Assembly (NCBI GenBank): GCA_963922205.1
Contig: CAWUHX010000395.1
Location: forward strand, 150,793-214,792
DNA from: Romanomermis culicivorax
Lineage: Eukaryota > Nematoda > Enoplea > Mermithida > Mermithidae
Length of the DNA: 64,000 nt
Direction: 5' to 3'
The notes under the pieces are model-generated. The model did no database searches, had not been told where the DNA came from, and saw only the letters and a list, made by a program, of their open reading frames with translations. The position numbers and the translations under genes are program-made. Shown here piece after piece: positions 49,587 to 58,702 of this stretch; positions within the stretch are counted from its first letter, which is position 1, and the number at the start of each line of letters is the position of its first letter.

Positions 49587-51424
49587 TTACGGGTCGGGGA
49601 CCTCTGCATCAAGATGTGGGTCAATCAGATTCGGTGTAAAGTCCCGGCTTATTGATGGATACAATAAGGGTGCCGAATCCGTTGCCTGTGAAGTGGGAGG
49701 TGTATCCTCTGCTTCACTTGGTTGTTCAGGGGACACGTAAAGTCGAAGCTGGTTGACATGTACAGTGTCTTCCTGATCCATCTCGAGACGAAGTGTGACA
49801 TTGGGATATGCCACACTTGTTACAAGGTAGGGTCCATCGTAGATGGGCAGCAATTTAGGAGTGAGTCCACGTTTGCTGGAGGTGCGCAGTTTGAGCACCT
49901 GGTCCCCTACTTTGTACGAGACATCATGTGCCCTCCGGTCGTACGACCGTGCATAGGCTTCCTGTGCTTTCTCAATCCGACTCTGGATTAAGGTTAACGC
50001 ATTCGTGAAATGACGTTTGACCTCCATATCATATGAGGAAACATTAATGATATGGGCCGGAGGGTTGAATGAGAGCGCGGCGTCAACAGGGAGCATGGGT
50101 GTGCGACCGTACATGAGTTCAAAGGGCGAGTACCCTGTTGACTCATTCATGCTGATATTGACGGCAAACACAGCGTATGGTAGGTGTTCATCCCAATCAG
50201 TATGTCCTTGATGAACATACATACGTAGCCGTGTGGCTAGCGTCTGATTAGCTCTTTCCACTTCGCCGTTGGTCATCGGGTGATAGGCGGTAGAGTGGAT
50301 TTTCTTCGTCGCGCAGATCGCAGTGATTTCAGTCATCAGTTTTGATGTGAAGTCAGTGCCACGATCTGACTGAAGGATCTGCGGTGCCCCGTGCCGGCAG
50401 ACAATTTGCGTTACAAACAGCCGGGCTATGGTGTTCGCAGTAATGTCCGGAGTAGCGAAAGCCTCGACCCATTTCGTAAAGTAGTCGATAAAGACTACGA
50501 TGAAACGGTTGCCAGCTTCGCTAGTGGTCATTGGTCCCATGCAGTCGACACCTACCCGGTGAAACGGTCCCGTGATGGTGATAGGTTTCAGGGTCGCAGT
50601 GGTTTTCTGTCGAGCGGGCTTATTCCGTTGGCAAAGATCACACCGCTGACAGAAGGACTTGACATCCCGACTGAGGGAGGGCCAGTGGTATCTGCGAGCA
50701 ATGAGCCGCGCAGTACGTTTAGCACCGAAATGTCCAGCTAAGATGTCATCGTGATGGGCCCGGATAATGGTAGTAACCATGGATCTGGGTATGACGATCT
50801 TATTGGACTCGCCTGTCCATTTCTGAAGGACGTTATCCAACAGATGGTAGCCTCGCACATCATTCTGGTCGCCCAGAGGCTTAAGAGAGCGGATGATGTC
50901 GGCTAATTCCGGATCCTCCACCTGAGCAGCGAAAAGGTCGGGGTGCTGCGCACCGACGGATATCTCGGCATAAGACTCTGATCGTACCGGGCGCTCCGCG
51001 CCAACAGTGATCGGTGCTGAATTACTTGAACGCGCCAGGTGCTGCACACCATCGGTCAAGGTCCTTGATCTCGCCAGGTGCTGCGCACCATCGGTGATCA
51101 TCATAACGTGCCCCTCAGGTCTGTAAAGGGGAGTATCATCAATACTCTGACCGGTGAGGGAGTTAGGATCCGGCAGGCGTGATAATGCGTCAGCATTACC
51201 ATTAGACTGACCTTTTCGCGGCCGAATTGTCAGTTTGAATTCGGCGAGCGCGAGTCCCCACCGAGCGATCCGAGCAGAGGGGTTAGGCTTCTCCAACACT
51301 GCTTTGACCGCGGTATGGTCAGTCTGAACGACCACCTCGTGCTGGAAGAGGTATGGTCGAAAGTGCTTGACGAAATGGACAACAGCGAGAGTCTCCAGTT
51401 CTGTAATGGAGTAGTTTTTCTCGG
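49587..51424 (-). pseudogene. Family C pol, end of RNase H and integrase
   Basis: This is the continuation of pol in another frame after a one-base deletion near 51,424. It holds the end of RNase H (TDHTAVKAVL, NADALSRLP), a linker with four GAQHLARS-like units (about 50,935-51,110), the integrase HHCC finger (HHDDILAGHFGAK, then C-x2-C), the core motifs VDCMGPM, QSDRGTDF and NGEVERANQTL, and a GPY C-terminal module (YDGPYLV, HVNQLRLY). It stops at 49,587. Apart from the frame break it appears intact. Confidence 0.9.
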
Positions 51425-51430
51425 CCGCTG

Positions 51431-56183: not shown

Positions 56184-56958
56184 TCAGATTTCTTCTTCGT
56201 CGCTGTCGGACGAGATTGGTTCCTGGTCGGGGAAATCGAGGACCAATTCACCGCTGGGGAGGATCTCCCGAAGGGTACCGACTTTCGGCGACCGTGGGTT
56301 GACTGCCGTTGGGAACGGTGATGTTTCGACAATGCTGACATCCTCATTAACTGGACGTAAGGTCTCGTCGACGGCCATGGGTTCGACGACGGGCGACTTG
56401 GTCGCGGCGGTCGGAGATGTCGTTTGGGCTGGTGCCGGCGATTTGGTCTGGGCTGTTGCCGGCGGTGTAGGATCATTTGCGGGTTCCTTGGCCGGGGGCG
56501 AGGAAGCAGTAATGTCCATTTTAGTTGGCGATGTCGCGGCAACAGGTGGTGCTGCTGCCGGTGATGTAGCGGCGGCAGCAGGCAGGAGGATCCGACTGGC
56601 CTGTTCGACTGCTCGGCGGACGGCGTCGACTGAAGGCGAGGATGGCTCCCCGTCCAATAAGAACTTCTCGACGGGCGAGATGGTGATAGTCCCATTGGCA
56701 ATGAACTCGAGTGCCCGGCGGGCGACGTCGGGTCGTAAGAGGCGCATCGAGACGGGTGCTGCGAGCACGACGTCGGCGGCCGTGAGTGCTTCGACATTTG
56801 ATGGCTCGTTGAGGAGAGTCCACGGCAAATGCGGGTATTTCTTGGCCAGGTCGACTGACCAGACGGCCAACATCGCGTCTTGGACGGGCGATGGCGCTGT
56901 GAACAAGAAATCGATAGAGTCGTGGACTGAGATAGATTTCTGGTTCCTACTCTAGGAT
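56184..56958 (-). CDS. Family C gag C-terminal domain, in a second frame
   Basis: This frame is protein-like, with helices around AMLAVWSVDLAKKYP and RPDVARRALEFIANG, then Pro/Ala/Thr-rich repeats and an acidic end (SSDSDEEEI). The other open frame over the same bases is a low-complexity Arg/Ser/Pro/His string and looks like a shadow. It corresponds in position to the C-terminal region of family A gag. Relative to gag upstream it is shifted by -1, so there is a frame change near 56,950; relative to env it stands as in family A (env is +1). Confidence 0.7.
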
Positions 56959-58702
56959 CACCTGAAGAAGAAGGTAGTATACCTGACAAATTCATGGGCT
57001 CGACCTGGTCGAGGACTTCCGTAGCCGAATCCGTGGGGATCGAAGGCGGTGGTCCTGGAGGGACGGTGCGGGCCGGTGGCGCCGAAGACGTCGTATTCGC
57101 GGCTGGAGTTGGCTCGGCAGTCTTGAGTTTAGGTATGCGATACGATGCGAGGATGTTAGCGTGGCCAACAAACTGCGGTGTCGTCGAGGGGTCCAGAGTG
57201 ACCGGCATCGCATACTTTGCTGGTGGTGGTGGCAGCGGTATGTCCGATACGTTCATCGGTACGGGTACCTGGGCTGCTTGGACCACTGAAAATCCAATAC
57301 TGATTACGCAGACAGGATAACACTGTTGTGAAGAATCTGTCAGGTGTTCAGCAAGTGCCTCATCATCCAGGTCAAGAGGATCTGGATGAGGAGGGCCATC
57401 GGTAGCCCCAACGGCGTTGTTGCGGCGTATGGGCTGCCGATAATGGTTTCCTGTCCCGTTGGGAGGGTGATAACCATTTCTTTGATGATACACATTTGTC
57501 CCCTGGGAAGAATAACCAGTATCTTGGTAGACATTCTCACCCGTGTTTGCCGGATTGCGCTGCGGACAGGCAGTTGATCGGTGCACTCGCACTTGACGAC
57601 AATGAGGGCATGGCCTATCACATCGGTCCGTGGGGTGGGCACGTGTACGGCAAAAATAACAGCGACCACCGTTAGCGGCGTTGTTACCGGGGGCGGCACC
57701 GGTGGGACGCTGGGCCCGGCAGTCGGCGTCGCTATGTGTACACAGTCCGTGGAAGGAGCACGTTTGAAGGTGTGCTCCCGACGAGCGTCGCCCGGCGGAC
57801 TGATTTGGTGTCGACGGCTGTGGAGGCGGCGTCTGTTGGATTGGCGCGGGTGCACGTTGCTGGGCCGTGAGCTTCACTACGTGGGCCGTGAGCCTGGCCA
57901 TTTCCTGTTTCAAGCGGCGAACCTCATCGGCGGAGGATGACGACGTTGGAGCGTTGCTCTGACGACCGTTTGCGCTTCTGTTAGGCATATCGGGATTATA
58001 TCCGGCGTGTTTAGGTTCTGAAGAGAAAACGGCGTTAGATGGAGCAGTGTACCGGATCTCGTCCCGAAAGATTTGGGATTCTGCGTAACAGGCTGCCTTG
58101 AGTGTCTCTTCAAGAGTCGTGAACTCCCTAAACTTGATACTATCTCGGAGGACTGGCTTCAGTCCCCGCAGAAAGATAGGTTTGATGATAGAATCTCGGA
58201 CATCCGTCGCGAGATCTGGATACGCTACCCTGGATAGTCTCTTGAGGTGCTCAAGGTAGACTATCGCGGACTCTGTCGGCTTCTGCAGTCGATCTTGGAT
58301 CAGCTGCTGATGCAGATCAGAGTCGCGCCCTACCGGAAAATCTCTCCGTAGAAAAGCCGTAAACTCTTCGTAGCGGGTAGGTATTGGAGTGCTGCTGCTA
58401 AAGTCCCGGTAGGAGGCGAGAGCAGGACCCGTGAGGCATGACTCCAGAAAGGCGATTTTATACGCATGATCCGTTTCGCTTACACCCTGAAGTGTAAAGA
58501 AACGAGTAAGATGCGACATAAAATCGGTGATAGACTCACCAAAAGCACCGGAGAAGGTGGGAGGGGCCATAAAGCTGGACACGGGAGGGTGCCTCCGACC
58601 ATTCATGGCCTCTAACTTTTGGTTGAGGGGTCCAAGAGCATTCTCAAATGCTGCCTGGACCTTGTTCTCGATCTGTGAAGGGAGATCAGTTTCCGACTTC
58701 AT
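56950..58702 (-). CDS. Family C gag
   Basis: About 580 residues from the ATG at 58,702. A coiled N-terminus is followed by a capsid-like region (FTAFLRRDFPVGRDSDLHQQ, then YLEHLKRLSRVAYPDL), homologous to family A gag. A coiled segment (about residues 258-283) and a cysteine-rich part with CYFCRTRAHPTDRC (residues 348-361, CX2CX4HX4C) and CPHCRQVRVHRSTAC follow, then a Pro-rich tail. The frame appears to change near 56,950, probably by an indel, because in family A the gag core and its C-terminal region share one frame. Confidence 0.85.

Follow-up and report, generated by a model that had tools for sequence, protein, structure and literature searches.

A Ty3/Gypsy-type element of the nematode Romanomermis culicivorax with a viral-type fusion glycoprotein in the reading frame between Gag and Pol

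Can a retroelement carry its envelope glycoprotein (Env) inside the very reading frame that encodes Gag and Pol? In retroviruses and in the env-bearing long terminal repeat (LTR) elements compared here, env comes after pol and is expressed on its own. Here, we analysed a stretch of 64,000 nucleotides (the window) of the mermithid nematode Romanomermis culicivorax (contig CAWUHX010000395.1, positions 150,793 to 214,792), in which a first-pass annotation had placed env between Gag and Pol and in frame with Pol in an LTR element of a family termed C. This placement was borne out: one minus-strand frame is free of stops from the Gag ATG at 58702 to a stop at 51431-51433 (2423 codons) and encodes, in this order, Gag, a signal-like segment, an ectodomain, a transmembrane (TM) helix, two protease (PR) domains, PR1 and PR2, reverse transcriptase (RT) and the start of RNase H. 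The annotated single frame from the signal peptide to RNase H thus stands, with the corrections that Gag is also part of it, that two protease-like domains are present and that the window copy has its integrase in another frame. The latter follows from a break of the frame inside RNase H, which leaves the integrase (49587-51335) outside the long frame in this copy.

The broken window copy was compared with its sister copies in the R. culicivorax assembly that we searched (359,112,060 bases, 595 contigs; version 2 of this genome is given as 359.1 Mb in 595 scaffolds, PMC10879605). A genome search with half of the family C Env gave 3347 candidates, of which the best 128, window copy included, were scored. 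None of the 128 has a stop inside the Env match, and the open frame around Env reaches at least 3000 codons in 75 of them (45 with 3092, 21 with 3100), while it measures 2000-2999 codons in 34 and is shorter in 19; the window copy has 2477. Ten plus-strand copies with frames of 3092 or 3100 codons were chosen for direct reading. All ten have the Gag ATG in the Env frame without a later stop in the piece, a Gag-Env spacer whose upstream part is free of stops in the polyprotein frame, and RNase H and integrase that keep to the Env frame until a stop common to the ten. Over the 3' part of X, an open reading frame (ORF) that overlaps this spacer, the polyprotein frame lacks a stop in 30/30 copies. 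A conserved stop between env and protease, or an env behind pol, would speak against an in-frame Env: in 29 of 30 family C loci the Env frame continues without a break across PR1 and PR2, and within the window, the only place examined for it, no env follows pol, about 520 nt lying between integrase and 3' LTR. As the frame lengths and the pieces read directly show, a single frame in long-frame copies of family C spans everything from Gag and Env through the proteases, RT and RNase H to integrase.

The window copy (16.2 kb, 47594-63813, minus strand) is composed as follows.

62341-63813, minus strand: 5' LTR (TGTCACG...TGTGACA), 98.4% identical to 47594-49067 over 1476 columns
62862-62869, minus strand: candidate splice donor AGGTGAGT inside the 5' LTR, from a pattern scan; the sole other strong match on the sense strand is its copy in the 3' LTR
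58703-62340, minus strand: leader from 5' LTR to Gag, 3.6 kb
57305-58702, minus strand: Gag, capsid and nucleocapsid part (PF19259 Ty3_capsid, E 9.4e-8)
56165-57304, minus strand: Gag-Env spacer in the polyprotein frame, without stop in the window copy
56184-56951, minus strand: X, ORF of 255 (or 263) codons in the -1 frame relative to the polyprotein, ending EEEI-stop
56054-56140, minus strand: signal-peptide-like segment before Env (hydrophobic 19-mer at 56122-56066, Kyte-Doolittle (KD) value 2.1)
54469-56053, minus strand: Env ectodomain, class III fusion glycoprotein type
54434-54490, minus strand: Env TM helix (KD 2.14)
53897-54355, minus strand: Env tail and PR1, a weak first retropepsin (LDTG; PF13975 E 0.0037, below the cut-off)
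53429-53896, minus strand: Ser/Arg-rich linker without Pfam match
52880-53428, minus strand: PR2, retropepsin (VDTGA; PF13975 E 3.5e-8)
51434-52879, minus strand: RT and first part of RNase H (RVT_1 E 1.7e-35), followed by the stop at 51431-51433
49587-51335, minus strand: end of RNase H and integrase, in another frame in the window copy (Integrase_H2C2 E 2.7e-22, rve E 1.6e-8)
47594-49067, minus strand: 3' LTR, from the LTR-LTR alignment with ends inspected

Domain matches were obtained by scanning pieces of the frame separately against Pfam. Several features place the element with the Ty3/Gypsy kind: the order PR-RT-RNase H-integrase, which is also found in the related proteins P0006 and P0008-P0011 introduced below, the resemblance of its Gag to Ty3_capsid, LTRs of about 1.47 kb with ends of the TG...CA type and, as best solved match of a profile (A6) of family C Env, family A pieces and relatives, the Ty3 Gag-Pol polyprotein (E 5.8e-210). 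An identity with Troyka was rejected, as Troyka ends in CG...CG (PMC12440569) and the LTRs here in TG...CA. No matching target-site duplication (4-6 bp expected of Ty3/Gypsy) was found in the flanks of the window copy, the one copy inspected. The G+C content in 2-kb steps is 48-57% over 48-64 kb versus 33-42% over 30-48 kb. The leader contains a long A run near 61275-61330 and no ORF of at least 120 aa in an ORF list reaching 62000. The two tandem retropepsin-like domains (52880-54355, minus strand) are 21% identical to each other over 124 columns; in family A, a single protease was seen.

Are the parts of this frame in use? We counted variable sites by codon position (first/second/third) and applied a chi-square test, with p-values that are rough because sites are not independent of copy relatedness. 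Third positions dominate in Env (13/8/76, p = 5e-20) and in the following stretch of tail, PR1, linker and PR2 (21/22/79, p = 2e-12) among the 30 best copies, as well as in Gag (9/1/20, p = 1e-4) and RNase H-integrase (6/9/33, p = 1e-6) among 10 copies. By these counts, Gag, Env, the join of Env and protease, and integrase of family C are under selection.

Family A had been annotated with the same order, which holds, although its window copy is decayed:

16457-23414, minus strand: family A, decayed copy; Gag 23414-21672 with one stop, N-terminal part of Env 21838-21242, C-terminal part of Env through TM, PR and RT to integrase 20821-16457

Three stops interrupt Env in this copy, but from the C-terminal half of Env onwards (20821-16457) the frame stays open across TM, PR and RT and reaches into integrase. 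Families A and C are 45% identical in the C-terminal part of Env and 49% in Pol. A genome search for A gave 3357 candidates, of which 129 copies were scored; 127 of these lack a stop in the match, and the frames reach at least 2450 codons in 55, 2000-2449 in 18 and less in 56. In three chosen copies with a frame of 2486 codons, Gag and Env share one stop-free frame (3/3), and from the frame length and the Env-to-integrase frame of the window copy we infer that the integrase of long A copies belongs to it too. Both window copies hence appear to be damaged representatives of their families, in which the long-frame copies have Gag, Env and Pol in one ORF.

Relatives were sought by a protein search with family A (1455-aa query, residues 1-1000 scored), which yielded 2560 matches among 7974 scored candidates. 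Within the best 120 of these matches, PF24664, the Pfam family matched by Env (see below), occurs together with RT in five proteins (P0006, P0007, P0008, P0010 and P0011), and relatives with the same order are 33-44% identical over the matched query. Piecewise BLAST found Gag, Env, PR, RT and integrase as a single predicted frame in P0008 (2499 aa), P0010 (2490 aa) and P0011 (2294 aa); P0006 contains Env, PR, RT and a whole integrase, P0007 the same with a partial one. The layout recurs in P0074 (2430 aa) with a diverged Env (hhalign probability 93 versus 0.2 for a reversed control). A protein search with the Env-protease piece of family C gave no match, and relatives were found neither in IMG/VR scans nor in one scan of genome contigs. 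In the RT tree, A, C, P0006, P0007 and P0009 form a group (100/100) joined by P0008 and P0010 (99/98), and P0011 and P0074 fall outside with weak support. Monophyly of all Env-bearing RTs is borderline in the approximately unbiased test (p = 0.045 with 8 rows, 0.055 with P0074), so that a single origin is not established. P0009 (1903 aa) is a close relative by RT in which Gag is followed by two hydrophobic segments, some 40 residues from each other, and then by PR, RT and integrase, the ectodomain being absent; possibly, Env was lost in frame and both membrane segments were kept.

What kind of protein sits between Gag and protease? The ectodomain of the family C Env comprises 528 residues with 16 cysteines and 9 N-glycosylation sequons, compared to 3.3 expected after shuffling. 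It matches PF24664 (Monjiviricetes_fusion), the fusion glycoprotein of negative-strand RNA viruses, with an E-value of 2e-14, family A doing so with 3.5e-16 (52.9 and 58.7 bits at a cut-off of 27). All 16 cysteines fall in columns that are also cysteine in P0007, P0008, P0010 and P0011, and four of the five closest Env matches are proteins of R. culicivorax. A predicted model resembles the class III glycoprotein gB of herpesviruses and has a gB-like fold; a first model from 7 sequences was not used (pLDDT 39.7). Judged by sequence and predicted fold, Env is a class III viral fusion glycoprotein of the Monjiviricetes type with a putative role in membrane fusion.

We lean, by a modest degree, towards reading A and C as Ty3/Gypsy elements with a captured fusion glycoprotein between Gag and protease, the product of which would be a polyprotein threaded twice through the membrane. 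A glycoprotein of the negative-strand RNA virus kind would have been inserted between Gag and protease. Gag would stay in the cytosol, an internal signal peptide would send Env to the outside, one TM helix would anchor it, and protease, RT, RNase H and integrase would again be cytosolic. Signal peptidase would free the end of Gag and the N-terminus of Env; by eye, the signal-like segment has an AxA-like end before QYQFCG. The protease just inside the membrane might later release Pol, and Env and Pol would arrive together at the budding site, recruited by Gag.

The charges around the membrane segments fit Gag inside, Env outside and Pol inside in most elements tested. Within 25 residues of the family C TM, no K/R precedes and 5 follow the helix; K/R after TM exceed those before in 8/9 elements, and K/R before the signal segment exceed those after in 5/6, P0009 being set apart in both counts. 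No stop separates TM from the protease DTG/DSG in 8/8 Env-bearing elements compared, six of which are predicted single frames, so that only A and C test this freely. The annotated idea that a membrane glycoprotein has Pol as its cytoplasmic extension is supported by the in-frame Env-TM-Pol order, with a topology that we infer from sequence. Its corollary that Pol is packaged through Env rather than through a link to Gag is not supported, as Gag lies in the Env frame in 10/10 C and 3/3 A copies read: with Gag, Env and Pol in one frame, Env keeps Gag covalently joined to Pol unless cleavage or splicing parts them.

Several observations weigh against translation and threading as one chain. Frames are shorter in 53/128 C and 74/129 A copies, and selection means that each part is in use, which is not proof that all parts form one chain. 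For Gag in P0008 and P0011, the basis is a BLAST comparison of eight proteins, at 21-22% identity to the Gag pieces of the window, a Pfam Gag domain being listed, among P0008, P0010 and P0011, in P0010 only; Gag continuity can rest neither on P0007, which starts at the mature Env N-terminus, nor on P0006, which starts inside Env; and the Env piece of P0074 has no Pfam match. P0002, a protein of 225 aa from a 9.7-kb contig, terminates 49 residues past TM without having reached a protease, possibly by a stop or frameshift after TM. P0007 lacks the charge bias across TM and P0074 that at the signal segment, and P0009 fits neither pattern, its loop being basic. A signal peptide inside a chain, with about 860 residues of Gag and spacer ahead of it, is an unusual arrangement. 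Finally, the donor-like motif in the 5' LTR is strong, so spliced env-pol mRNAs are possible.

Could Env-Pol then be made from such a spliced mRNA, apart from Gag? Foamy viruses make Pol from a spliced mRNA separately from Gag. The shared Gag frame would in that case be incidental or a source of minor readthrough, and Pol would be packaged as tail of Env or after cleavage. The consensus donor-like AGGTGAGT of the 5' LTR (pattern only) could be paired with the acceptor-like TTCTTCTTCAGG (56972-56961), close to where X begins, and insect errantiviruses make Env from spliced transcripts (PMC12992720). However, splicing does not need the stop-free Gag-to-Env frame that is present in the A and C copies read and in P0008, P0010, P0011 and P0074, and in family C the in-frame Met nearest upstream of the signal segment lies about 70 residues ahead of it. 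We regard this route as rather unlikely.

The second rival concerns X. An earlier reading, in which the Gag-Env continuity of family C was a frameshift accident and X the coding frame, was dropped; sister copies are open from Gag to integrase, and X is then an overlapping ORF. X lacks a stop in 139/149 scored C copies and is 48% identical to the R. culicivorax protein P0004 over 149 columns. In its 3' part, variable sites by polyprotein codon position (13/31/13) peak at the third position of X (p = 0.003), and the chance of the polyprotein frame being open over the window X is 0.03 under synonymous shuffling. With this peak and a polyprotein frame without stop in 30/30 copies, the spacer looks doubly used, X being more constrained in its 3' part. 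Most ribosomes might shift by -1 from Gag into X and stop before Env, leaving Gag-Env-Pol as minor product of the unshifted ones; both the conserved openness of X and the third-position signal in its own frame suit such an exit, as does the R. culicivorax protein P0003, which joins C-terminal Gag residues to X residues. Yet, a slippery site was not identified, the junction in P0003 may stem from a predicted intron, variable sites in the 5' part of X number only 5 in 10 copies (1/1/3) and show no peak at the X third position, and no long -1 frame was seen in the 3/3 family A pieces read. That the polyprotein is but a minor product appears doubtful to us.

An assembly or decay artefact, i.e. a chance open run in a broken copy, is next to negligible: the break in RNase H, the part of the spacer that appears constrained in another frame and the p of 0.03 for openness over X would suit it, but it is contradicted by the same frame in dozens of dispersed C copies, a second family and relatives from other sources, in line with the first-pass view that the order is no assembly accident.

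The twice-threaded polyprotein is thus favoured. Spliced Env-Pol mRNA and the exit into X may compete with it or add to it; these possibilities overlap, and a choice between the three cannot be made from sequence alone. More speculatively, X of family C could yield a Gag-X or X product by frameshifting or splicing, which would end before Env and set the ratio of Gag to Env-Pol. Somewhat short of an even chance, we tentatively propose for the lineage that Gag, an RNA-virus-type fusogen and Pol are made as one membrane-threaded polyprotein, Env linking capsid to polymerase, and that the overlapping gene in one family is the exit that sets the Gag:Env-Pol ratio.

How does this compare with known systems? 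The layout resembles the flavivirus polyprotein, in which capsid, internal signal peptide, ectodomain, TM and cytosolic enzymes form one chain, the proteins themselves being unrelated. Like C and A, the errantiviruses gypsy and ZAM have LTRs, Gag and Pol of the Ty3/Gypsy type and a fusion glycoprotein that was captured from a virus and bears a signal peptide and a TM. Their Env, however, is of the F type and a separate ORF after pol, whereas Env here is class III and precedes PR in the same frame; in the env-bearing lineages of insect Metaviridae described in PMC12992720, env follows gag and pol as a third ORF, and a spliced mRNA is typically its source of expression. The mosquito element Anakin also captured a glycoprotein of a Monjiviricetes-kind negative-strand RNA virus, in this case that of a chuvirus, but it is a BEL/Pao element (PMC7642597), in contrast to the Ty3 match found here. 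Cer1 of Caenorhabditis elegans is a nematode element of the Ty3/Gypsy kind in which no stop divides gag from pol (PMC10309623); it differs by an extra ORF after pol, part of CERV, which is a nuclear protein and not an Env. Glycoproteins of Jingchuvirales and of nyami-, borna- and rhabdo-like viruses share PF24664, and herpesvirus gB shares the class III fold, but these are separate viral genes, fused neither to Gag nor to Pol. In the openly licensed PMC literature, with subscription literature outside the scope, we found no description of env between gag and pol. If true, the conserved one-frame Gag-Env-Pol would mean that enveloped retroelements can be built in a second manner, in which the ratio of Env, Gag and Pol is fixed and the envelope holds Pol on a tether. 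The case also represents a Ty3/Gypsy capture of a negative-strand RNA virus glycoprotein, for which a survey by the authors of Anakin reported no clear evidence (PMC10084718). With many long-frame copies in one genome, transcripts and particles can be searched for directly.

Further features were noted in the window. Another Ty3-like gag-pol element (8626-15941, minus strand) has an ORF of 1838 aa (10425-15941) and then one at 9669-10406, followed by a 317-aa ORF (8626-9579, minus strand) without Pfam match; a 632-aa ORF (3675-5573, minus strand) likewise has none. A tandem array at 39745-40534 has a unit of about 98 bp and also matches 24576-24927. On many contigs of the genome, other RT matches lie in very long frames, in many cases of exactly 2011 or 2233-2234 codons, which points to further retroelements that may have been active recently.

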